This document shows, in pieces, positions 28,609 to 40,842 of a stretch of DNA of 64,000 nucleotides. Origin of the DNA: Algoriphagus boseongensis. Its GTDB lineage: Bacteria > Bacteroidota > Bacteroidia > Cytophagales > Cyclobacteriaceae. A program made the translations under genes and the position numbers. Within the stretch, counting starts at the first letter, position 1, and every line of letters begins with the position of its first letter. The notes under the pieces are model-generated. The model was given only the letters and a program-made list of their open reading frames with translations, searched no databases and was not told the origin of the DNA. The stretch lies in assembly GCF_004362805.1 (NCBI RefSeq), contig NZ_SNYF01000005.1:248001-312000 (forward strand), read 5' to 3'.

Positions 28609-31596
28609 TTAATCTACCCTTTTCAAAATCCCTGGTGACTGACTTTCTTGTCCGATTAGGGATTCGAGTCGGAGTTTTAAAGCCTGAGCTTCTTCCTGAT
28701 AACCTCTTTCCTCCAGTAATGGGATAAAGTATTTGACCATTTCGATAGAGATCATCATGTCTCGGTCATAGCCCCGATCTTCTTTGGTATAAAACTCAAT
28801 CATGTCCAAAGACCGTTTGGAGATTTTGTCGATGATATCCAGTGCTTTTTCATCTTCACCCACTTCAAAGAATAAAGGAACAGACTGTCCACTGCTCAAA
28901 TCGTATGGGACTGACTCATGTGGAATGGCTTCCAAGCCTCTGTTTAGAAGGTTTGCAGCTTCTTCCATTTTGTCCTCATCCAAAAGTGCCATAGCGATGC
29001 TATTGAGCGCACTTCGGTGATTGGAGGTGAATCTTCTGTATTCCTCGTCATAGTAAGCATCAGGATTATCCATGCCCCGGAAGGCAAAATTCTCCATGTA
29101 GTTTTTATAGGCTATGTCAGTATTGACCAATTCGTCTCGTACATAATCAGGCTTTCTAACAGGAAGAAGTCTGTATGTCATCCCCTCCATCACCACGTGA
29201 TCTTCGATATTGATTCCAATGGTAGAAAGGGAAGTGTTGTTGAAGTAAATCGGTCTTTCCCAATTGTTGCTCACGATCAAGTCAATCAACATCAAATTGC
29301 CTTTGGTTAGGTAATTTCCTTTGACCTGAAGGTTCATTTGAGGAGCGAACAAAGATTTGAATTGTGGAGGAACGATTTCATCATTGTTGATAAAGGTGCT
29401 GTCCACTTCCAAAATCAAATTTCTGGCTGGAACCATGTTCACTACGCTTTTTCCTCCGGTTTGCATTTTAAGAAGATCAGAACCAGTGTTTAAAAGTCTA
29501 AGATATTCCTTTGCAGAAATGGCATTGAGGTTTTCACGCTCCATTACATAAAGGACATCATTGGTTCCTTTTTGATAGCGTTCACTAACCAAGGAGAAAG
29601 GTAGTGGAGCAGATTCATCAGCCTGCTTGGTCATTTGCTCTACATACCAATCGGTATCGAAGTAGCTGAGAACAATTACCCGAACATCAGTTCGGAAGTT
29701 TTCAACTTCCTGAACATACCAAAGAGGGAAGGTGTCATTATCTCCTCCGGTAAACAAAATGGCATTTGGAGCGCAGGAGGCAAGGAAATTTCTGGCAGAA
29801 TCTACTGAGAAATATCTTCCCTGGCGGTTGTGATCATTCCAGTTTTGAGCTCCCATCAAGCCAGCCACAGGCAAGGTCAAAAGAGTGGCAATTATGCCGC
29901 CTGTTCCCAGATTTTTGGTTGCTTTTCCTAAAGCATGGGCGATTGCCAAAGTTCCTAGGCCAATCCAAATGGCAAAAGCATAAAAGCTACCCACATAGAT
30001 ATAATCACGCTCTCTAGGTTCTACAGGAGGTGAGTTGAGGTAAAGAACCAATACCACGCCCATCATCAGGAAGAGCATGAGATTTACATAAAAATATTTG
30101 GGATCCTTTTTAGCCTGGAAAAACAAGCCAATCAGACCCAAAATCAAAGGAAGCATGAAATAGGTGTTATGCCCCTTATTGTCCTTGATGTAATCCGGGT
30201 ATTTATCTCCAAATGAATCCAATAAGCTTACCCATGGTGCATCCATGAAATCACTTTCTCGGCCTGAAAAATTCCACATGAAATATCTCCAATACATGTG
30301 ACCCAACTGATGGCTGAGCATGAAGTAGATATTGTCACCAAAGGTCGGATCTTGTCCTTCTCTAAGTCCAAGCTTTTGGCGATAGATTCGCTTGTGATTT
30401 TCCTGAGTAGAGTAAATTCTTGGAAGAATTGTGGTTTTTGAAGGGTCGTAGGTGTTTTTGAGTTCGTAATCTACGACTTCGTATTTGTCTTTTCCCTTCA
30501 TATAAATCGGAGCTCCTTCTTCTTGATCTACCAATTGGGCAGTGAAATACTGCCCATGAAGAAGTGGTCTGTACCCATATTGCTCACGCTTCAGATAGGA
30601 AACATAACTTATGATGTCCTTTGGAGCATTTTCATTGATAATGGGGTCTTGGTTGGCTCGGATAATAATCAAGGTGTAACTGGAATACCCGATCAAGATG
30701 AAAGTCAATGAAAGGAGAATGGTATTGAGCAGAGCTTTTTCTTTTTGGAGAGAATAACGAATTCCAAAAATCAAGGCTCCTAAGAAAAGGATAATAAACA
30801 CCACGATTCCTGCCCCGAAAGGAAGTCCAAGACTGTTCACAAAGAAAATCTCCATAGAACCCGCCAAACTTGGGAGTCCCGGAATGATCAAATTGTTGAT
30901 GATAATCAAGGCAACCCCTCCCAGAAACATGGCATAAATTGCTCCTTTGAAGCTTGGGTCAGGATACTTTTTGAAATAATAAATCAAAGCCAAAGCCGGC
31001 AAAGTCACCAAGTTCAGCAAGTGAACTCCAATAGAAAGACCCACCAAATAGGCAATAAAAATCATCCATCTGTTTTCCTCTTTTGGATCTTTGATAACCT
31101 CCCACTTCAGGAATGCCCAAATCACGATAGCCGTGAAAAAAGAAGACATGGCATAAACTTCTGCTTCCACAGCAGAAAACCAGAAACTGTCAGAAAAAGT
31201 GTAAACCATAGATCCAACCAAGCCAGCACCCATCAACGCAATGGTTTGGGCTTTGGATTCCTTGCCTTCCTCGATAGAGAAAATCCTTTTTCCGAAAAGT
31301 GTAATCGACCAAAACAAGAAAAGAATGGTGAATCCTGAGAATAAAGCACTTCCGATATTCATCCAATATGCCACTTGCAAGCCATCCCCCATGGCCAGAA
31401 ATCCAAACATCTTGTACACCAAAAGCATGAATGGTGCCCCAGGAGGGTGAGGAACTTGAAGCTTGTATGAAACTGCGATGAATTCTCCCGGATCCCAAAA
31501 ACTAGCTGTTTGTTCTACAGTAAGGATATATACCAAAGTGGCGACTGCAAAAACTACCCATCCGGTTAGGTTATTGATCTGCTTATAATTGAGCAT
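28609..31596 (-). CDS. DUF2723 (glycosyltransferase family 117-like) membrane protein
   Basis: A 995-residue protein. The first about 580 residues carry roughly a dozen membrane helices with the conserved N-terminal block SFWDPGEFIAVSYKLQVPHPPG near residue 33, which contains the Asp-Pro-Gly-Glu catalytic-type motif of DUF2723/GT-C enzymes. A large soluble domain follows, including the GGDNDTFPLWYVQEV motif near 622 and a helical, TPR-like C-terminus. Family members resemble protein O-mannosyltransferases and are proposed to glycosylate exported proteins in Bacteroidota. Monocistronic, divergent from the sulfur module. Confidence 0.88.
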   Translation of the reverse strand: MLNYKQINNLTGWVVFAVATLVYILTVEQTASFWDPGEFIAVSYKLQVPHPPGAPFMLLVYKMFGFLAMGDGLQVAYWMNIGSALFSGFTILFLFWSITLFGKRIFSIEEGKESKAQTIALMGAGLVGSMVYTFSDSFWFSAVEAEVYAMSSFFTAIVIWAFLKWEVIKDPKEENRWMIFIAYLVGLSIGVHLLNLVTLPALALIYYFKKYPDPSFKGAIYAMFLGGVALIIINNLIIPGLPSLAGSMEIFFVNSLGLPFGAGIVVFIILFLGALIFGIRYSLQKEKALLNTILLSLTFILIGYSSYTLIIIRANQDPIINENAPKDIISYVSYLKREQYGYRPLLHGQYFTAQLVDQEEGAPIYMKGKDKYEVVDYELKNTYDPSKTTILPRIYSTQENHKRIYRQKLGLREGQDPTFGDNIYFMLSHQLGHMYWRYFMWNFSGRESDFMDAPWVSLLDSFGDKYPDYIKDNKGHNTYFMLPLILGLIGLFFQAKKDPKYFYVNLMLFLMMGVVLVLYLNSPPVEPRERDYIYVGSFYAFAIWIGLGTLAIAHALGKATKNLGTGGIIATLLTLPVAGLMGAQNWNDHNRQGRYFSVDSARNFLASCAPNAILFTGGDNDTFPLWYVQEVENFRTDVRVIVLSYFDTDWYVEQMTKQADESAPLPFSLVSERYQKGTNDVLYVMERENLNAISAKEYLRLLNTGSDLLKMQTGGKSVVNMVPARNLILEVDSTFINNDEIVPPQFKSLFAPQMNLQVKGNYLTKGNLMLIDLIVSNNWERPIYFNNTSLSTIGINIEDHVVMEGMTYRLLPVRKPDYVRDELVNTDIAYKNYMENFAFRGMDNPDAYYDEEYRRFTSNHRSALNSIAMALLDEDKMEEAANLLNRGLEAIPHESVPYDLSSGQSVPLFFEVGEDEKALDIIDKISKRSLDMIEFYTKEDRGYDRDMMISIEMVKYFIPLLEERGYQEEAQALKLRLESLIGQESQSPGILKRVD

Positions 31597-31697
31597 TAAA
31601 TCGGTAAATTTAGAGGGACGAAAATATAAAATTTTACTCCAAGTCAGGGGTTTTTAGCACTTTTTAAAACTTCGGGTTTACTGGACTGATTTCCCGG

Positions 31698-31713
31698 TGT
31701 GACAAAAATTACT
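31698..31713 (+). promoter_or_regulatory. Crp/Fnr-type box 1 (thioredoxin promoter), imperfect
   Basis: TGTGACAAAAATTACT keeps a perfect TGTGA left half and a weak right half. Its centre is 37.5 bp before the G of the TAAATTTG -7 element, the same offset as in the tsdA promoter. Confidence 0.5.
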
Positions 31714-31735
31714 GTATTATGGGTTTTGGGTATGC

Positions 31736-31743
31736 TAAATTTG
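31736..31743 (+). promoter_or_regulatory. -7 element TAAATTTG of the thioredoxin gene
   Basis: Exact TAnnTTTG match, 23 bases before the thioredoxin ATG, with no good -33 TTG. That is consistent with activator dependence. Confidence 0.65.
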
Positions 31744-31766
31744 TACTCATATTAAAATCTTTAACC

Positions 31767-32087
31767 ATGAGTGCACAACCTAAAACCTTTCAGGAACTAA
31801 TCGACGGAGACACACCGGTATTGGTGGATTTCTTTGCGGTTTGGTGCGGACCTTGTAAAATGATGCAACCGATTTTGGAAGATACTGCGCAAAAACTTGG
31901 GGATAAAGTCAAAATCATCAAAGTCGATGTAGACAGAAATCCATTGGCAGCCAGTAAATTTCAAGTGAGGGGAGTCCCAACCTTGATCTTATTTCACAAA
32001 GGAAATGTGGTCTGGAGACAATCGGGAGTAGTTCCGTCGCACCAGCTGATCCAAATCATTGAATCAAATCTTCTGGCGAAAGCTTGA
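31767..32087 (+). CDS. Thioredoxin
   Basis: A 106-residue thioredoxin with the redox-active WCGPCKMMQP motif near residue 29 and the cis-Pro loop VRGVPTLILF near 74. ATG 31767 (MSAQPKTF) gives family length; an upstream ATG at 31719 overlaps the promoter and was rejected. It starts the sulfur module and is 86 bases from the persulfide dioxygenase gene. That gene has its own regulatory box, so the two may be separately transcribed. Likely role here: reducing rhodanese-bound persulfides or handling sulfane sulfur, inferred from neighbours. Confidence 0.93.
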   Translation: MSAQPKTFQELIDGDTPVLVDFFAVWCGPCKMMQPILEDTAQKLGDKVKIIKVDVDRNPLAASKFQVRGVPTLILFHKGNVVWRQSGVVPSHQLIQIIESNLLAKA

Positions 32088-32093
32088 TTTGAT

Positions 32094-32109
32094 TGTGACA
32101 AAAGTCATT
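32094..32109 (+). promoter_or_regulatory. Crp/Fnr-type box 2 (persulfide dioxygenase promoter)
   Basis: TGTGACAAAAGTCATT, a TGTGA-N6-TCA match. A TAATTTTA -7-like element ends 36.5 bp from its centre (32131-32138), seven of eight bases fitting TAnnTTTG apart from the last. Confidence 0.6.
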
Positions 32110-32173
32110 TTATTGCCTTTTCTTGAAAGGTAATTTTACAAGAATATATTAAAGACCTTAAAAAAATATAGAT

Positions 32174-33595
32174 ATGAAAATAGAACAAATTTATACCGGA
32201 TGCTTGGCTCAGGGAGCTTACTATCTAGAATCTGATGGAGAAGCGGCAATCATTGATCCGCTAAGAGAGGTTCAGCCTTATATCGAAAAAGCTGAGCGCA
32301 GAAATGCTAAAATCAAATATGTTTTTGAAACGCATTTCCATGCGGATTTTGTGTCTGGACATAAGGATTTGGCTGCCAAAACTGGAGCTAAGATTGTTTA
32401 TGGACCTACCGGTATGAAAATGGGCTTTGATGCGATAGTCGCTGAAGACAACCAAGAGTTTCAATTGGGAAAAGCCAAAATCAGAGTTGTCCATACTCCA
32501 GGCCACACCATGGAGTCAGTTTGTTATCTTTTGATCAATGAGGAAGGTAAAGAAGAGGCGATTTTCACAGGAGATACTTTGTTTATCGGAGACGTAGGCC
32601 GACCAGATCTAGCTCAAAAAGTCGTGAAGGACTTGACTCAGGAAAAATTGGCAGCTCATCTGTACGATTCCTTGAGAAATAAGCTGATGCCATTGTCTGA
32701 TGATTTGATTGTATATCCTGCGCACGGAGCTGGTTCTGCTTGTGGTAAAAATATGAGCAAAGAAACTTCAGACACCTTAGGAAATCAAAAGAAAACCAAT
32801 TACGCCCTTCAGCCGATGAGCAAAGAAGAGTTTATTAAAGAAGTTTTGACTGGATTGACTCCTCCTCCTGCTTATTTCCCACAGAACGTTCTGATGAACA
32901 TTCAGGGGTATGATAGCATAGATGAGGTTTTGGAAAGAGGTGTTAAACCTTTAACTCCAGCCGAATTTGAAGCTGCTGCAAATGAGACTGGTGCTTTGAT
33001 TTTGGATACAAGAGATGCTCAGACTTTTGCCAAAGGATTTATTCCAAATTCAATCAATATCGGAATCGACGGAAGTTTTGCAGTATGGGTAGGAGCAATG
33101 ATTCCTGACTTGAAGCAAGAAATCTTGGTTGTGGCAGAAGAAGGAAGAGAAGAAGAAGTAATTACCAGATTGGCCAGAGTTGGATATGACTATTCTATCG
33201 GCTATTTGAAAGGAAGCTTCAAAGCTTGGAAAGAATCAGGCCATGAGGTGGATTCAATTACTTCAATTTCGGTTGATGAATTAGCCAAAATCAAGGAATC
33301 TGATCCGAACATCCACATTTTGGATGTGAGAAAGAATTCAGAATACCTTTCTGAGCATGTAATGGATGCAGAAAACGCACCTTTGGATTACATCAATGAC
33401 AGCATGCTAAAAGTAAATAAGGATAAAACGTATTATGTACATTGTGCTGGTGGATATAGATCCATGGTCTTCAATTCCATCCTTAGAGCAAGAGGCTATG
33501 ACAATTTGATCGACGTTGCAGGTGGATTTAAGGCCATCAAAGAATCAGGGAAATTCAAAGTGTCCGACTACGTTTGTCCTACTACTTTGCTTTAA
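32174..33595 (+). CDS. MBL-fold persulfide dioxygenase fused to two rhodanese domains
   Basis: A 473-residue cytoplasmic protein. Residues 1-235 are an ETHE1-type metallo-beta-lactamase fold with THFHADFVSGH (H54, H56, D58, H63), HTPGHTMES and FTGDTLFIGDVGRPDL, an Fe(II) persulfide dioxygenase set that makes sulfite. Residues about 255-350 form a rhodanese fold whose active-site loop reads VVAEEGREE, without Cys. Residues 365-470 form a second rhodanese with intact loop HCAGGYRS. It would transfer sulfane sulfur and oxidise persulfide. A terminator follows. Confidence 0.9.
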   Translation: MKIEQIYTGCLAQGAYYLESDGEAAIIDPLREVQPYIEKAERRNAKIKYVFETHFHADFVSGHKDLAAKTGAKIVYGPTGMKMGFDAIVAEDNQEFQLGKAKIRVVHTPGHTMESVCYLLINEEGKEEAIFTGDTLFIGDVGRPDLAQKVVKDLTQEKLAAHLYDSLRNKLMPLSDDLIVYPAHGAGSACGKNMSKETSDTLGNQKKTNYALQPMSKEEFIKEVLTGLTPPPAYFPQNVLMNIQGYDSIDEVLERGVKPLTPAEFEAAANETGALILDTRDAQTFAKGFIPNSINIGIDGSFAVWVGAMIPDLKQEILVVAEEGREEEVITRLARVGYDYSIGYLKGSFKAWKESGHEVDSITSISVDELAKIKESDPNIHILDVRKNSEYLSEHVMDAENAPLDYINDSMLKVNKDKTYYVHCAGGYRSMVFNSILRARGYDNLIDVAGGFKAIKESGKFKVSDYVCPTTLL

Positions 33596-33619
33596 TAATC
33601 CAGTAGAAAAGTCGCTTAG

Positions 33620-33650
33620 AAAATGGCAGGTCGAAAGACTTGCCATTTTT
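33620..33650 (+). terminator. Terminator of the persulfide dioxygenase gene
   Basis: Stem AAAATGGCA...TGCCATTTTT with an inner GTC-GAAA-GAC. It ends in five T, 18 bases before the next Crp/Fnr-type box. Confidence 0.85.
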
Positions 33651-33667
33651 AGTTTATGGAAATCCGA

Positions 33668-33683
33668 TGTGATTAAAGTCACC
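33668..33683 (+). promoter_or_regulatory. Crp/Fnr-type box 3 (first porin gene)
   Basis: TGTGATTAAAGTCACC, nine of ten half-site bases matching TGTGA-N6-TCACA. It lies only 20 bases before the porin ATG, so it may repress, or the promoter lies unusually close. Confidence 0.6.
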
Positions 33684-33702
33684 AGATTAAAAATCTTTCC
33701 TA

Positions 33703-35112
33703 ATGAAATTTGTACCTAAAGTCATCTGGCTAATTGTCGGATTAGTCTGGTTGAATACCAATTCCTCAGTAGTACTGGCGCAACACCATGCTGAACACGA
33801 TCCAGATACTCTTTCGAACAAAAAGATGTTCGGTAAAATCTTGAATTCAGGGCATTTTGAATTTCATCTGAGATCATTCTTCATGTACACCGGAAATGAG
33901 CCTGGTCTTTTAGACTATTCTACTTGGGGTACAGGGGCTGGTTTGGGTTACTTCAGTCCGAGATGGAAAGGTTTGGGGATAGGGTTTAGTGGGTTCTTTG
34001 TTTTTAGACATTTTGAAAACAATATTACTATTCTAGATCCTGAGACAGGCCTTAGAAATCGGTATGAATTAACTCTGTATGATGTCCATCATCCGGAAAA
34101 TAACCACGATATGGACCGACTGGAAGAATTTTTCCTCTCCTATGAAAAGGAGAAATTCTTCGCTTGGATTGGGCGTCATCACATCGAAAGTCCTTTGTTG
34201 AATGCATCAGACAATAGAATGAGACCCAATCTATTCAGCGGCGTATCGGGGAGTTATCGTCCAGGTAATTGGAAATTGACAGGGACTTGGATCACTCATT
34301 TGATCTCTCGTGGGTCTTTGGAATGGGTGCCCGTAGAAGAATCTGTTGGTTTTTATTCCACAGGTAGAAACCCGACTGGTTCGGATGAAATCTATACCCA
34401 TCATCTCCATTCCAAAGGGATTGGAATTCTTGGGGTAGAATATCAGGATGAAAGATTGAATTTGAAATCTTGGAATTACCTAGCCGAAGGGATGTTCGCC
34501 ATCAGTTTTGCAGAAGCTACGACAAAGATTCCTCTGGGAGTCAACCACAAAGCAATATTTGGGGTTCAGGGCTTTTATCAAAGTGCAGTAGGAGATGGAG
34601 GAAATCCAGAACCGGAAAAAGCGTATATTTTACCTGGGGAGAAAACCTTTGGTGTGGGTTTGAGATCGGGAATTCTTTGGGATAATAATCAGTTAACTGT
34701 TAATTATCTGGGGATTTCAGATCAGGGACGATTTCTTTTCCCCAGAGAGTGGGGTAGAGAACAATTCTTTGTGAGTATGCAAAGAGAAAGGTTTGAAGGA
34801 TTGGGAGGAGTTCATGCTTTCAACTTGATGTATGAAAAAACGATTCATGATCAATTGAAAGTCGCAATAGGAGCGGGGCATGCCTCAACTCCAAAATTGG
34901 AAAATGTGAAACTGAATAAATATGGCTTGCCCCATTATTATCATTTCACAGGATTGATTGATTATAAATTTGACGGGTTTTTCAAAGGTTTGGATCTTCA
35001 GCTTTTGGTAGCTCACAAAGGGGAAAATACCGATCAGGACCTTCCTCGGGAATATGTAATCAATCGGGTAAACATGACTAACGTCAGTTTGATTTTAGAC
35101 TACAGATTTTAA
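33703..35112 (+). CDS. OprD-like outer-membrane porin of the sulfur module
   Basis: A 469-residue protein with signal peptide (VIWLIVGLVWLNTNSSVVLAQ) and a mature part of alternating, aromatic-rich beta strands ending in an outer-membrane C-terminal Phe (LILDYRF). A His/Asp-rich segment (QHHAEHDPD) follows the cleavage site. It is clearly paralogous to the porin at 39.5 kb; shared landmarks include SPREWG/FPREWG, RGSLEW/RGSSEW and a matching GR-rich loop. Between a persulfide dioxygenase and two YeeE/YedE transporters, it most likely passes a sulfur oxyanion such as thiosulfate or tetrathionate; inferred. Confidence 0.75.
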   Translation: MKFVPKVIWLIVGLVWLNTNSSVVLAQHHAEHDPDTLSNKKMFGKILNSGHFEFHLRSFFMYTGNEPGLLDYSTWGTGAGLGYFSPRWKGLGIGFSGFFVFRHFENNITILDPETGLRNRYELTLYDVHHPENNHDMDRLEEFFLSYEKEKFFAWIGRHHIESPLLNASDNRMRPNLFSGVSGSYRPGNWKLTGTWITHLISRGSLEWVPVEESVGFYSTGRNPTGSDEIYTHHLHSKGIGILGVEYQDERLNLKSWNYLAEGMFAISFAEATTKIPLGVNHKAIFGVQGFYQSAVGDGGNPEPEKAYILPGEKTFGVGLRSGILWDNNQLTVNYLGISDQGRFLFPREWGREQFFVSMQRERFEGLGGVHAFNLMYEKTIHDQLKVAIGAGHASTPKLENVKLNKYGLPHYYHFTGLIDYKFDGFFKGLDLQLLVAHKGENTDQDLPREYVINRVNMTNVSLILDYRF

Positions 35113-35137
35113 TAGCAACTAATTAAGTTAAGTATAT

Positions 35138-35719
35138 ATGGAGCAATTCATTGAATGGATTAAACAACCTTGGCCCTGGTATGTAGCAGGTCCCATGATT
35201 GGACTTACCGTCCCAGCACTATTGATTTTAGGAAACAAAACCTTCGGGATTTCATCCTCGCTCAGACATATCTGTGCGGCTTGCGTTCCTGCAGGGATTC
35301 CTTTCTTTACCTACAATTGGAAAAAGGAAATCTGGAATTTACTATTTGTGCTTGGGGTAGCCATTGGCGGTTTCATTGCCACAAATTTTCTCGCCAACCC
35401 AGAAACAATCGTTGTTTCTGAGGCAACACAAGCTGATCTTGCCGCTTTGGGAATTACCGATTTCTCGGATTTGATGCCGGCGGATATTTTCTCCTGGGAA
35501 AATATGACAAACGCAAAAGGCCTTCTATTCTTCGTTTTTGGAGGATTTTTGGTAGGATTTGGTACCCGATATGCAGGAGGATGTACTTCCGGACATGCCA
35601 TTATGGGTATTAGCTCCTTGCAGTGGCAATCAGTAGTAGCTACCACGTTTTTCATGATCGGTGGCTTCTTAATGACCCACGTTTTGATGGAGCCTTTAAT
35701 GAAAATGGTTGGATTCTAA
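35138..35719 (+). CDS. YeeE/YedE family transporter, first half (thiosulfate uptake-like)
   Basis: A 193-residue inner-membrane protein with about five helices. The conserved Cys motif is [13 protein letters not shown] near residue 150; a second Cys pair, ICAAC, is near 45. This is one half of the DUF395/YeeE-YedE family. Fused relatives (TsuA) import thiosulfate through a chain of cysteines, and here the second half is a separate gene 12 bases downstream. It is 25 bases after the porin gene, so porin and both halves form one unit. Substrate inferred from homologues and neighbours. Confidence 0.82.
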
Positions 35720-35731
35720 ACTTTTGATAAA

Positions 35732-36226
35732 ATGACTAAAGTAGCAGAAAAGAAAATAGAGGTGCAGGATCCACATTGTGCAGCACCTAATCTGAGAGAA
35801 GATCACGATAAAGGCCTTGAGCTGTTAAAGTATCTTGTTATTGGCCTAATCTTCGGGATCGTATTTGTTAAGGCAGAAATTATTTCTTGGTTTAGAATAC
35901 AGGAAATGTTCCGTCTTCAATCTTTCCACATGTATGGAGTAATTGGGTCGGCAGTTGTCACCGGAATTATTTCAGTGCAATTGATCAAAAGACTTAATGT
36001 TAAGACTATCCACGGTGAGACCATCGAAATTCCTGATAAAGTATTCAAAAAAGGTCAGGTGATCGGAGGATTTATTTTCGGATTGGGTTGGGCACTTACC
36101 GGAGCATGTCCAGGTCCTTTGTTTGCCCAAATTGGCAGTGGATATACGGTAGTTTTAGTGACCTTAATATCAGCTTTGGCGGGAACATGGGTTTATGGGA
36201 AATATGCCCATAAGCTTCCGAACTAA
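35732..36226 (+). CDS. YeeE/YedE family transporter, second half (DUF6691-like)
   Basis: A 164-residue inner-membrane protein with about four helices and the second conserved Cys motif, TGACPGPLFAQIGSG near residue 122. The N-terminus (residues 1-40) is hydrophilic with CAAPNL, possibly cytoplasmic. It would pair with the product of the preceding gene to form the complete thiosulfate or sulfane-sulfur channel. The stop is followed by a strong terminator. Confidence 0.82.
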   Translation: MTKVAEKKIEVQDPHCAAPNLREDHDKGLELLKYLVIGLIFGIVFVKAEIISWFRIQEMFRLQSFHMYGVIGSAVVTGIISVQLIKRLNVKTIHGETIEIPDKVFKKGQVIGGFIFGLGWALTGACPGPLFAQIGSGYTVVLVTLISALAGTWVYGKYAHKLPN

Positions 36227-36243
36227 GTTCTGATATAAAATTG

Positions 36244-36275
36244 AAAGCCACTTTCGTAAGAAGGTGGCTTTTTTT
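36244..36275 (+). terminator. Terminator of the porin-YeeE-YedE unit
   Basis: Stem AAAGCCAC/GTGGCTTT extended by G-T pairs, followed by TTTTT. Confidence 0.8.
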
Positions 36276-36354
36276 AATTAAAGACCTTTTTGACTATAAA
36301 TCTGATCAAAAGGATAATGGAGGCTATAATGACTCCAACGATAATAAATTCCAT
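36274..36354 (-). CDS. Candidate 26-residue membrane micropeptide
   Basis: The minus strand reads MEFIIVGVIIASIILLIRF then IVKKVFN and a TAA stop. It is a single hydrophobic helix of about 17 residues followed by a basic tail, the layout of known bacterial membrane micropeptides with the C-terminus inside. It ends at the terminator of the convergent YedE gene. No ribosome-binding site or clear promoter is visible, and one hydrophobic ORF this short can occur by chance in AT-rich DNA. If real, it could modulate a neighbouring membrane transporter; function unknown. Confidence 0.35.
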   Translation of the reverse strand: MEFIIVGVIIASIILLIRFIVKKVFN

Positions 36355-36470
36355 GTGAAGTGTTTGGGGTTTAACTAGGAGCAATGGGGAATAGTTTCTC
36401 CTTTTTTATTCTTTCTCCAATTCCGGATCAAACTTCCTAAATTCGCCTGATTTTCCAGCCTATTAAACCA

Positions 36471-37634
36471 ATGAATTACCTTTCCAAAAGGAGAGTTGCT
36501 CTCGGCGCGATGTTTTTCTTTATGGGGCTTTGCTTCTCAAGTTGGGCGGCAAGGATTCCTGACATCCAAGCAAAATTTCAGCTTTCTGAAGGCCAATTGG
36601 GGACTATTTTACTTTGCCTCCCCATAGGTTCTATGCTCGGATTACCCATTGCCGGTTGGTCAGTGCATCAATATGGAAGTAGGGTGGTGATCTTAATTAT
36701 CAGTTTCGCTTATGCCTGTACCTTGCCTTTGATTGGCTTGGCCACGACCACCTGGATGCTAGTTCCAATCCTTATCCTTTTTGGCATGTTCGGGAATATT
36801 ATGAACATCTCGCTCAATACCCAAGCCTTGGGATTGGAGGATCAAATGGGGAAAAGCATTTTGGCTTCTTTCCATGGATTATGGAGTATGGCTGGATTTA
36901 CTGGAGCTGGATTTGGGGCAGGAATGATTTTGTTGAATATCTCACCTGCAGGGCATTATGGCCTAATTATGCTGATCTCTTTCGTGATCGTTCTTCTTTC
37001 TCAAAAATTTGTACTAAACGACAAAAATCAATCGGATGAAGGAGGATTGGTCTTGAAAAGACCGGATGATTTGCTGCTGCGAATTGGACTGATAGCTTTC
37101 CTCGGAATGATGACAGAAGGCTGCATGTTTGATTGGAGTGGGGTTTATTTCAAAAAGATAGTCTTGGCAGAACCTGGCTTAGTGGCTCTTGGCTATGTGT
37201 GTTTTATGGGAGCTATGGCCTCCGGTCGATTTATGACGGATAAATCCACTCATCGATTTGGAAGAGTTCCTGTTTTACGGGTAAGTGGAGTGTTGATTTT
37301 CTTGGGGCTTTTGATTTCTGTGATTTGGCCGGGTATTTATTCAGCAGCACTTGGGTTTTTACTGGTCGGTTTTGGAGTTGCTTCCATCATTCCCGTTTCT
37401 TATAGCATTGCTGGCCGTTCCAAACTTTACCCTCCAAGTGTAGCACTAGCCTTGGTCTCTACCATTTCGTTTTTCGGATTTTTGCTGGGTCCTCCTTTGA
37501 TTGGATTTGTGGCAGATTTGTTTGATTTGAAAGTTTCCTTTGCGCTTATTGCAATCAATGGTTTGGGGATTTTCCTTTTGACTAGCATTAGGAAAAAGGT
37601 ATTTGAACCCCAGCCGATTAATTCTGTAGAATGA
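36471..37634 (+). CDS. MFS transporter (YbjJ-like)
   Basis: A 387-residue permease with 12 predicted helices. The N-terminal stretch SSWAARIPDIQAKFQLSEGQ followed by GTILLCLPIGSM is typical of the YbjJ/Bypass-of-stop-codon-type branch of the major facilitator superfamily. The stop overlaps the start of the acyl-ACP thioesterase by four bases (ATGA). Substrate unknown; no relation to sulfur metabolism is apparent although it lies inside the module. Gene and family confident, function not. Confidence 0.85.
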   Translation: MNYLSKRRVALGAMFFFMGLCFSSWAARIPDIQAKFQLSEGQLGTILLCLPIGSMLGLPIAGWSVHQYGSRVVILIISFAYACTLPLIGLATTTWMLVPILILFGMFGNIMNISLNTQALGLEDQMGKSILASFHGLWSMAGFTGAGFGAGMILLNISPAGHYGLIMLISFVIVLLSQKFVLNDKNQSDEGGLVLKRPDDLLLRIGLIAFLGMMTEGCMFDWSGVYFKKIVLAEPGLVALGYVCFMGAMASGRFMTDKSTHRFGRVPVLRVSGVLIFLGLLISVIWPGIYSAALGFLLVGFGVASIIPVSYSIAGRSKLYPPSVALALVSTISFFGFLLGPPLIGFVADLFDLKVSFALIAINGLGIFLLTSIRKKVFEPQPINSVE

Positions 37635-38359
37635 TTTTACCGGAGGAGTTTCAGTTTACCAAAGAGTTTGAGGTGGGATCTTTCCAGGTTCATCCCAATG
37701 GAAATATCTGCCTGACTTCCCTTGCTGATTTGCTTCAGGAAATTGCCTGGAGACATGCGGATTCTGGGGATTTTGGAAGAAACCTGATGGAAACCCAGCA
37801 AATGTGGGTGCTTTCCAGACTGGAAATAAAGGTCCAAAAATTCCCAAAATGGGGAGATAAGATCAGGATTTTTACGGGTGGACGAGGAACTGAAAAGTTG
37901 TTTGCTTTTCGGGAGTTTTTGATTTGGAATGAAAAAGAGGAGGTTTTGGCTAGAGCCATGTCCTCTTGGTTATTGCTTCATTCTGAAACGAAAAAAATTC
38001 TCAGACCAGAAATTGTTTTGCCAGCCGAACTTTTTGATCCTAGCAAAAAGCCGGATTGGCAGCCGGGCAAAATTTCACTTTCAGGTGAACTCATTTCTGA
38101 GGAAAAAATTCAAGTCAGAAATTCGGATTTGGACTTGTACCACCATGTCAATAATACCAGCTACATCCGATGGGTTGAAAATGCATTGGCAGCCCAAGAT
38201 TGGTTTCCTCAAGAAATTTCAATCAACTATTTGGCGGAATGCTTGTCGGGAGATCAGGTAGAATTAAAGCTTTTTAAAGATGAGGAATTTGGCTTTTTGG
38301 AAGGGAAGGTTGGTGACAGAATGGTCTTTTCTGCTAAGGTGAAATTAGATAATTCCTGA
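37631..38359 (+). CDS. Acyl-ACP thioesterase
   Basis: A 242-residue double-hotdog thioesterase. Hallmarks are QEIAWRHADSGDFG near residue 35, WVLSRLEIKV near 57, and the catalytic-region motif YHHVNNTSYIRWVEN near 170 with the Asn and His used in catalysis. It releases free fatty acids from acyl carrier protein. Translationally coupled to the preceding MFS gene. Length fits bacterial FatA/FatB-like proteins. It lies just before the tsdA promoter, with no evident metabolic link to sulfur. Confidence 0.88.
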   Translation: MILPEEFQFTKEFEVGSFQVHPNGNICLTSLADLLQEIAWRHADSGDFGRNLMETQQMWVLSRLEIKVQKFPKWGDKIRIFTGGRGTEKLFAFREFLIWNEKEEVLARAMSSWLLLHSETKKILRPEIVLPAELFDPSKKPDWQPGKISLSGELISEEKIQVRNSDLDLYHHVNNTSYIRWVENALAAQDWFPQEISINYLAECLSGDQVELKLFKDEEFGFLEGKVGDRMVFSAKVKLDNS

Positions 38360-38365
38360 TTTTCC

Positions 38366-38381
38366 TGTGATTCTAGTCACA
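38366..38381 (+). promoter_or_regulatory. Crp/Fnr-type box 4 (tsdA promoter), perfect
   Basis: TGTGATTCTAGTCACA matches TGTGA-N6-TCACA in all ten half-site bases. Its centre is 37.5 bp before the G of CACTTTTG (38404-38411), placing it near -42 to -45 of the likely start, as for class II activation. Confidence 0.7.
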
Positions 38382-38428
38382 GCTTTAGGCCTTAATTTTA
38401 ATGCACTTTTGTACATTGCTATACGACT

Positions 38429-39490
38429 ATGAATCAAATGATGCAGCCTTTTGTCAAATTGATCACGCTCATGGTAGCCCTTTTGGGTCTTTCCGTGGCC
38501 TTGATAGGAGTGATCGGATTGGTTTTATTTTTATCCTATTCGGGAGTTCAACTGCCAAGTTTAAGCGAAGAGGAAGTTACAGCCCCTCAGGCCGTCGCAG
38601 CCGTTCCTGTGGTAAAAGCTCTTGCTGATCCTTCGGGTATGTGGAAGGCTCCAGATTTGGCAAGTTTGGATTCTGATCCAAACGGAGATGAGATCAAATA
38701 TGGCCGGGAATTAATTGCAAACACCTCAGAATATCTTGGTCCAAATGGGAAAGTCAAGGCGATTTCAAATGGAATGAACTGTCAGAATTGCCATTTGCAA
38801 GCTGGAAGAGCTCCTTTGGGAAACAACTATAGCGCCGTTGCATCAACCTACCCTAAAGTCAGAGCACGATCCGGCCAATCTGAAGATGTTCAAAAGCGGA
38901 TCAACGATTGTTTTGAAAGAAGCTTGAATGGACAAGCCTTGTCCAGAGATTCCAGAGAAATGAAAGCTATGGTGGCCTACATTAATTGGTTGGGAAAAGA
39001 TGTACCAAAGGGAGAATCTCCTCAAGGTGTGGGGCTTTACGAGGTGCCATTACTAGACCGTGCAGCAGATCCTTCCAAGGGAAAATTGGTGTATGACAGT
39101 CAGTGCGCAGTTTGCCATCAGCCAAATGGAGAAGGAATAGCTAAGCCAGATGGAACAGGCTATACTTATCCCCCACTTTGGGGTAAGAATAGCTACAATT
39201 CCGGGGCAGGTCTCTTTAGACTTTCGAGATTTGCAGGATATGTGAGAGCAAACATGCCTCTAGGCGCAACTTTTGAAAACCCAATGCTTACGGACGAAGA
39301 AGCATGGGATGTAGCAGCTTATGTAAATAGCATGGAAAGGCCTTCCAAGGACTTGTCAAAGGACTGGCCGGATATTTCCAAAAAGCCAATGGACCATCCT
39401 TTTGGTCCCTATTCGGATGAGTTTTCAGAAGAGCAACACAAATTCGGTCCTTTCAAACCGATCAAAGAAGCCAAAGCTCAAACCAAGTGA
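38429..39490 (+). CDS. tsdA: Dihaem cytochrome c, TsdA-like thiosulfate dehydrogenase
   Basis: A 353-residue protein with an N-terminal membrane anchor (residues 10-37) and a periplasmic dihaem domain. Haem sites are CQNCH (118-122) and CAVCH (226-230). Between them RINDCFERSLNG places Cys161 where TsdA uses a Cys as axial ligand of the active-site haem. Known TsdA enzymes join two thiosulfates into tetrathionate, or reverse this. It is preceded by a perfect Crp/Fnr-type box, and its stop overlaps a porin start by four bases. Thiosulfate activity is inferred from this motif and the sulfur context. Confidence 0.82.
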   Translation: MNQMMQPFVKLITLMVALLGLSVALIGVIGLVLFLSYSGVQLPSLSEEEVTAPQAVAAVPVVKALADPSGMWKAPDLASLDSDPNGDEIKYGRELIANTSEYLGPNGKVKAISNGMNCQNCHLQAGRAPLGNNYSAVASTYPKVRARSGQSEDVQKRINDCFERSLNGQALSRDSREMKAMVAYINWLGKDVPKGESPQGVGLYEVPLLDRAADPSKGKLVYDSQCAVCHQPNGEGIAKPDGTGYTYPPLWGKNSYNSGAGLFRLSRFAGYVRANMPLGATFENPMLTDEEAWDVAAYVNSMERPSKDLSKDWPDISKKPMDHPFGPYSDEFSEEQHKFGPFKPIKEAKAQTK

Positions 39491-40842
39491 TCAGGAAATC
39501 TGCGGTTTACTTACTTCTTTTCTTAGGTATTTCTAATTTTTCAAAAGCTCAAGAAGAGAAAAAAGACCTTGTTGTTTCGCCCGATATCCATTTCAGATCC
39601 TTTTGGATGAATACGGCATATCCCGGACTGGACTTTAAAAAAGACTATGCCTTGGGTATGTCCCTGAATCTAGGAGCAAAGCTGGAATTCAAGGAAAATT
39701 TGAAAATGCACGTTGGCTATCGTGGATTTACCAATGTGGCCAGTTCGGAATTTTGGAATCCCGACCCAATTTCTGGTCAATCTAATCGATATGAAGCTGG
39801 GCTTTTTGATTTATTAAATCCTAAGGATAAGGTTTTTGGAAAATTAGAAACACTCTCTTTAGAATATTCTACTCAAAATTTTGGAGCGAAGGTAGGCCGG
39901 ATGGGAATCAATTCGGATTGGATCAATGCTCAGGATGGAAGATTGTCACCTACGGCTTTGGAGGGGATTAATCTTTGGTTTAACCCAGATAAAAATTGGA
40001 AATTTTCCCTTTGGGGAATTAGCAGATTGAGTATTCGGGGAAGTAGTGAATGGTTTAATCCGGGAGAAACCTTGGGTATTTATCCTCAAGGAAGAACTGA
40101 AACCGGGAAGCCAGGCAATTATTTTGGAAATACCCAAAGCGAGTGGATTGGAATTGCTGAAATAGACCGGAAAATAGGAAGTCGAAGCAAGATTCACTTT
40201 TCCCAGACTTTGGTTCAAAATATTTCCTCAACCTACTGGATGGCCTGGGAATCCAACTTGGTTAAGAAAGATGGCCTGATCAATTTGGGTGTAATGGGAG
40301 GTTTTCAACATGGCATTGGAAATGGAGGGAATCTCAATTTAGAATTGCGATACAAAAATCCTGAGGATAAGAATTTTGCCATTTCAGGAAGAGTTGGATG
40401 GAAAAGCGCACGATGGGTTACCCATTTGAATGTAACTCAGGTATTCGGAAAGGGTAGGTGGCTGAGTCCACGGGAATGGGGAAAAGATGCCTGGTATACA
40501 TTTATTCCAAGGGAAAGAAATGAAGGGTTTGAGTCAGTAACTGCAGTTGTTGGGTATGCTGAATACCGCTTTGAAAAATTCCCAATCCAACTTTACAGTC
40601 ATATGGGAGTACATTTTCTTCCTGATACCCAAAGTCCTCTTGAAAACAAATACAATTTCCCGAGCTATTTCCAGTCCAACTTGGGATTGAAATACCAACC
40701 TAAAAAGATCAAGAATCTGGACTTCCATTTCATTTTGGTTTCTAAGGAAGCATTAAGACCGAATGGTCTGACTTCCAATCAGATCTATAATAAAGTGGAA
40801 ATGCTGCATTTCAATGCGATTTTGAACTGGAGGCTAAATTGA
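39487..40842 (+). CDS. OprD-like outer-membrane porin paired with tsdA
   Basis: A 451-residue protein starting at GTG, overlapping the tsdA stop (GTGA). Signal peptide SAVYLLLFLGISNFSKAQ; mature part of beta-barrel strands with SPREWGKDAWYTF, RLSIRGSSEWFNPGE and the GNGGNLNLELRY loop. It shares layout and several motifs with the porin at 33.7 kb and is its paralogue. Translational coupling to tsdA suggests it passes the substrate or product (thiosulfate or tetrathionate). Ends in LNWRLN rather than the usual terminal Phe. Confidence 0.75.
   Translation: MIRKSAVYLLLFLGISNFSKAQEEKKDLVVSPDIHFRSFWMNTAYPGLDFKKDYALGMSLNLGAKLEFKENLKMHVGYRGFTNVASSEFWNPDPISGQSNRYEAGLFDLLNPKDKVFGKLETLSLEYSTQNFGAKVGRMGINSDWINAQDGRLSPTALEGINLWFNPDKNWKFSLWGISRLSIRGSSEWFNPGETLGIYPQGRTETGKPGNYFGNTQSEWIGIAEIDRKIGSRSKIHFSQTLVQNISSTYWMAWESNLVKKDGLINLGVMGGFQHGIGNGGNLNLELRYKNPEDKNFAISGRVGWKSARWVTHLNVTQVFGKGRWLSPREWGKDAWYTFIPRERNEGFESVTAVVGYAEYRFEKFPIQLYSHMGVHFLPDTQSPLENKYNFPSYFQSNLGLKYQPKKIKNLDFHFILVSKEALRPNGLTSNQIYNKVEMLHFNAILNWRLN

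Follow-up and report, generated by a model that had tools for sequence, protein, structure and literature searches.

Reactive-sulfur control of persulfide dioxygenase (PDO) genes is known from the ArsR, CsoR and sigma-54 families. The Crp/Fnr family has thiol-based regulators of its own, CprK and FLP, in which cysteines are used as a switch, and a nitrosative-stress regulator, HcpR. In Acinetobacter, Crp is just one among many persulfidated proteins (PMC7315123). A search of the full-text literature, in which coverage of subscription papers is thin, found no Bacteroidota PDO or tsdA genes described as being under Crp/Fnr control, which is weak evidence of novelty. The regulon proposed here, in which a Crp/Fnr class II activator would control sulfane-sulfur and thiosulfate genes, appears to be new; we infer the binding, the sign of regulation and the signal chemistry.

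We analyzed a stretch of 64 kb (the window, C1:248001-312000) from an Algoriphagus genome of 4.18 Mb. It carries a sulfur module whose genes, boxes and −7 elements are collected in Table 1. Also in the module are a second porin-like protein and two genes that lack a box of their own, which encode an MFS protein and an acyl-ACP thioesterase. The porin at 33703..35112 has no Pfam or NCBIfam match, the TsdA-like gene does not reach the NCBIfam TsdA equivalog, and Rfam matched nothing in 31000-40000. Upstream, a divergent TMEM260-like gene (28609-31596, minus strand) has a conserved block near its start (31596-31698; consensus TTTTAACAGCATTTAAGG) that is common to orthologues and is probably that gene's own promoter.

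Table 1. Genes, Crp/Fnr-type boxes and −7 elements of the sulfur module, in window coordinates.
Feature	Position	Strand	Details
Box before trx	31698..31712	+	TGTGACAAAAATTAC; 18/22 orthologues keep box with −7
−7 element of trx	31736..31743	+	TAAATTTG; 23 bp past box; predicted start 31748
Thioredoxin gene (trx), 106 aa	31767..32087	+	TIGR01068, 113.8 bits (cut-off 96.8)
Box before PDO	32094..32108	+	TGTGACAAAAGTCAT; at most 2 mismatches including −7 in 29/30 orthologues
−7 element of PDO	32131..32138	+	TAATTTTA; 22 bp past box; predicted start 32143
PDO-like gene, 473 aa	32174..33595	+	Metallo-beta-lactamase fold PF00753, two rhodanese domains PF00581
Box before first porin	33668..33682	+	TGTGATTAAAGTCAC; −7-like octamer GAAATTTG at 33705-33712, past ATG
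Putative outer-membrane porin, 469 aa	33703..35112	+	Open frame with signal peptide; name from the first-pass annotation
Two half-size TsuA/YeeE-like sulfur transport genes, 193 and 164 aa	35138..36226	+	PF04143 in both; PF20398 in second
Box before tsdA	38366..38381	+	TGTGATTCTAGTCACA, perfect 16-mer, also written TGTGATTCTAGTCAC(A); 18/22 orthologues perfect with −7
−7 element of tsdA	38404..38411	+	CACTTTTG; 23 bp past box; predicted start 38416
TsdA-like dihaem cytochrome c gene, 353 aa	38429..39490	+	PF21342 SoxA-TsdA cytochrome domain, PF00034

The first-pass annotation had placed four Crp/Fnr-type boxes in this module, and all four are present. It had also put the end of the −7 element 36.5-37.5 bp past the box center at trx, PDO and tsdA; measured from the dyad, these distances are 37.5, 36.5 and 37.5 bp. 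In Flavobacterium psychrophilum, the TAnnTTTG −7 box occupies −12 to −5 (PMC9723704), and this published position yields the predicted starts of Table 1 and dyads at −42.5 (trx), −41.5 (PDO) and −42.5 (tsdA). The predicted geometry of these three promoters is class II, with a dyad near −41.5 and no −33/−35 element of their own. At tsdA, the first base of the −7 element is C in most orthologues. Exact copies of TGTGA-N6-TCAC occur in the 64-kb window only at 33668 and 38366, both inside the sulfur module. All remaining window matches to the pattern have a mismatch, and boxes with one mismatch number 16, compared with 11.3 ± 3.9 in shuffles, a difference that is not significant.

We then considered conservation, for which orthologues were drawn from 119 family genomes and their upstream regions were aligned without using the box as a guide. 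The box and the −7 element are the best-conserved blocks in these alignments; the intervening 20-odd bases are unconserved, with no conserved −33 element in this spacer. Box and −7 together are perfect in 17 PDO orthologues and within 2 mismatches in 29/30, and they are perfect in 18/22 orthologues for both trx and tsdA, so that the boxes keep the same offset in orthologous promoters. The spacing from box to −7 is always 22 or 23 bp, in every orthologue set, and one mismatch is reached in 0.1-0.4% of shuffled upstream regions. A strict form of the element precedes 16/21 trx, 16/31 PDO, 16/30 tsdA, 15/54 regulator and 7/17 rhodanese genes, compared with just 4/517 other genes of the same loci. 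Across genomes, the boxes of trx, PDO and tsdA vary less than the boxes before the regulator's own gene and rhodanese. The four boxes are far from chance. Among the four other genes, two are a peroxiredoxin gene and one resembling a sulfate permease.

Exact TGTGA-N6-TCAC is found at about 20 places in the genome, mostly inside genes. Intergenic copies are the porin box, the tsdA box, one in the region between the SQR-like gene and a Crp/Fnr gene, one before a soxB-like gene, one before a peroxiredoxin gene and one between a lipoprotein and a YbjQ-like gene. We set the intragenic boxes aside and built the case on the spacing of box and −7 and on conservation. Across both strands of the 4.18 Mb, box plus −7 at class II distance gave 12 matches, of which 4 are the module boxes and 1 belongs to the regulator. 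A stricter consensus, with 22 or 23 bp, gave ten matches versus one in the reversed control. Eight of the ten precede sulfur or thiol genes (trx, PDO, tsdA, rhodanese, TauE, a second PDO-like gene, a YgaP-like gene of 67 aa and peroxiredoxin), and the remaining two lie inside unrelated open frames. The boxes are enriched before sulfur genes. The names YgaP-like and second PDO-like were read from sequence without a profile search; the latter gene (448 aa; L297 (G000:C2:539803), 1577-2923) has a box one off in its first base and a −7 at 23 bp. The SQR-like gene carries a near box, GGTGACATATATCAC. The gene at G000:C3:140 kb, which has a box before it, was rejected as SoxB: its TIGR04486 score of 236.7 bits is below the cut-off of 550, and we therefore call it SoxB-like only; a relative of this gene adjoins tsdA in locus L166. 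In six relatives, a pattern-only search returned intergenic matches before trx, PDO, tsdA, SQR (four genomes), rhodanese (five) and the regulator, together with scattered single genes. Box plus −7 also occurs in single relatives before genes named by eye as cytochrome bd-like (L284, G074), Hsp20-like (L248, L278) and sulfate-permease-like (L170).

The boxes had been ascribed to one Crp/Fnr-family regulator encoded outside the window. Indeed, the HTH_Crp_2 profile found no Crp/Fnr gene in the 64-kb window, and three proteins of the genome score above its cut-off. The candidate regulator has 218 aa and is encoded at G000:C1:1318701-1319354(-). The SQR-like gene (NF049943, 253 bits, under the cut-off of 525) lies divergently beside it, and further neighbors are TauE, a membrane protein and rhodanese. 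It belongs to the Crp/Fnr superfamily, with PF00027 at 33.6 bits and PF13545 at 50 bits, both above cut-off, and a Foldseek search with its model matched CRP/FNR structures. Its own promoter reads TGTGAGAATTATCAC, 22 bp, CATTTTTG. Close orthologues (at least 73%) are found in about 27/119 family genomes, and 16/27 have box plus −7 in this promoter with at most one mismatch. In more distant genomes, the regulator is itself part of the sulfur cluster. Locus L166 runs tsdA, soxB-like, porin-like, TsuA pair, regulator, box, TauE, PDO, rhodanese, thioredoxin, and a similar arrangement with boxes before trx and PDO is seen in L155 and L156. In 80 Bacteroidota loci with 8-kb flanks, we found a TauE relative in 35, a PDO relative in 30, and 20 strict boxes versus 0 in reversed sequences. 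Relatives of the regulator adjoin PDO, TauE, SQR or TsuA-like genes across Bacteroidota, which suggests that this putative sulfur-oxidation control circuit is found in much of the phylum. Its linkage, its autoregulatory box and its recognition helix all make this SQR-linked protein the probable regulator outside the window, which would bind the boxes.

The recognition helix comes in two types. Among 5-6-5 palindromes before sulfur genes, the top word is TGTGA at loci whose regulator has SRE (47, versus 0.9 in shuffles) and TGTAA at loci whose regulator has SRV (49, versus 2.4 in shuffles). The SRV-type boxes, TGTAA-N6-TTACA, lie 22 bp before the −7 in 29/31 cases. In E. coli CRP, changing Glu181 to Val shifts the base-pair preference from G:C to A:T. 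Helix type thus matches box type (SRE with TGTGA, SRV with TGTAA) in the direction that CRP Glu181 predicts. On the protein tree, considering rows that have a box call, SRE and SRV were exchanged once, and there are no independent pairs beyond one; the Fisher p-value for the match ignores this relatedness. Because there was a single evolutionary event, we take the match as agreement with a known mechanism rather than as statistics. SRV regulators with TGTAAC-N4-GTTACA operators before TauE, PDO, SQR and TsuA-like genes are seen in many Flavobacteriia and other Bacteroidota (L346-L381, L161-L171).

Judged from sequence, the boxes are very probably operators of one Crp/Fnr class II activator, the 218-aa protein, which would switch on a sulfane-sulfur and thiosulfate regulon. 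A regulator dimer would bind TGTGA-N6-TCACA centered at −41.5/−42.5, where a −33 element would lie, and the bound regulator would recruit RNA polymerase to a bare −7 element by class II activation. Predicted targets in the window are trx, PDO, tsdA and probably the porin/TsuA-like transporter group; outside it, they would be the regulator's own gene, the SQR-like, rhodanese, TauE, second PDO-like and YgaP-like genes and peroxiredoxin.

What the regulator senses is suggested by its cysteines. It has only three, Cys78, Cys84 and Cys85; of 50 sequences compared, all keep Cys78 and 49 keep Cys84. Both map to the loop that holds the cAMP ligands in CRP. Among these ligands, Glu72 falls in a gap, another residue stands in place of Ser83, and the Arg82 position is variable. 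Since the cAMP ligands are not kept and the two cysteines are near-invariant, persulfide or thiol sensing is plausible, and we see an even chance that the signal is persulfide or polysulfide and that Cys78 and Cys84, in the former cAMP loop, detect it. The regulator model has a pLDDT of 86.5 overall and of <50 at 81-83, in the cysteine loop; given this low confidence, we claim no geometry for Cys78/Cys84. It is possible, if doubtful, that a regulator as described responds to oxygen or disulfide stress rather than to sulfane sulfur. Thioredoxin and peroxiredoxin are among its predicted targets, and Crp/Fnr members that use disulfides, CprK and FLP, are known. The most constant targets and neighbors, however, are PDO, SQR, TauE, rhodanese and TsuA-like genes, which argues for a sulfur signal. 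FNR itself was rejected as an identity: its [4Fe-4S] cluster needs four cysteines, of which three are N-terminal.

The same regulator might instead bind as a repressor and be released by reactive sulfur. In other phyla, PDO genes are in several cases controlled by persulfide-responsive repressors (CstR, SqrR/BigR), and the porin box adjoins a start codon. We consider this unlikely: repression needs no fixed spacing, so the constant 22-23 bp to the −7 and a spacer without a conserved −33 fit activation. The porin box does depart from the other three. The first-pass site at 33668 is real, but class II geometry fails there: the −7-like octamer at the class II distance falls past the ATG (33703), the only plausible one, and this geometry gives no usable porin promoter as annotated. 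In loci L080, L081, L105 and L106, the −7 is past the porin ATG. The genus shares the porin box, which is found in about 11/30 relatives, in some of which it is reversed or directly before the TsuA-like gene. Its promoter may serve the downstream transporter pair, with the porin expressed from the PDO transcript; alternatively, the annotated start codon may be wrong.

The boxes could also be bound by another Crp/Fnr protein within a broader respiratory regulon, for example the FNR-like protein (C1:168 kb, L037:7777-8490) or a further one at C1:1503.6 kb. Both carry HTH_Crp_2, and the box precedes the FNR-like gene in one relative, G097 (L269). Against this stand their helices, TATESVIRLL and TSRQTVSMVL, which are not the CRP-like SRE-x-x-SR; moreover, in this genome no own box ties either protein to the sulfur genes, and box type tracks the helix of the SQR/PDO-linked regulator. 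We regard this reading as quite improbable. The box in G097 also hints at a cascade. It is most improbable that the regulator is cAMP-CRP and places the sulfur genes under carbon catabolite control. The half-site is that of E. coli CRP and the fold is Crp/Fnr, but the protein scores 52.9 bits against the NCBIfam CRP cut-off of 266 and does not keep the cAMP ligands, so this identity was rejected. Chance similarity of AT-rich intergenic sequence, which would suit the unremarkable one-mismatch count in the window, is refuted by orthologue conservation, as well as by spacing and genome-wide enrichment, and has a negligible probability.

A Crp/Fnr solution would name the missing regulator of sulfide and thiosulfate oxidation in the abundant aerobic heterotrophs of Bacteroidota and would predict its targets base by base. 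The switch between SRE and SRV would be a natural experiment on the CRP recognition code. More broadly, chances seem evenly divided on whether, in much of Bacteroidota, the cysteine-loop Crp/Fnr subfamily both senses sulfane sulfur and acts as master activator for the oxidation of sulfide, persulfide and thiosulfate, a single helix residue deciding between the operator dialects TGTGA and TGTAA.

The regulator resembles E. coli CRP in its predicted TGTGA-N6-TCACA site, a dyad near −41.5, the RE...R helix and the fold; it differs in lacking the cAMP ligands and in its predicted Bacteroidota −7 (TAnnTTTG) promoters and sulfur-gene targets. With CprK and FLP it shares the Crp/Fnr fold and cysteines that are likely a switch, whereas the places of the cysteines, the signals and the targets differ. 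CstR (CsoR family), SqrR/BigR (ArsR family) and FisR (a sigma-54 activator) offer a parallel in the reactive-sulfur control of PDO and SQR genes, with a dithiol pair proposed, but these protein families are unrelated to the Crp/Fnr regulator. HcpR of Porphyromonas gingivalis (PDB 9day) is likewise a Bacteroidota Crp/Fnr protein, similar in structure (TM-score about 0.7) though only 15% identical. The best PDB sequence match (1.1e-28 by profile) is EUBREC_1222 of Eubacterium rectale (PDB 3dv8), an uncharacterized Crp/Fnr protein from another phylum with about a quarter identity. Its cysteines align with both Cys78 and Cys84, and the cysteine subfamily may therefore extend past Bacteroidota.
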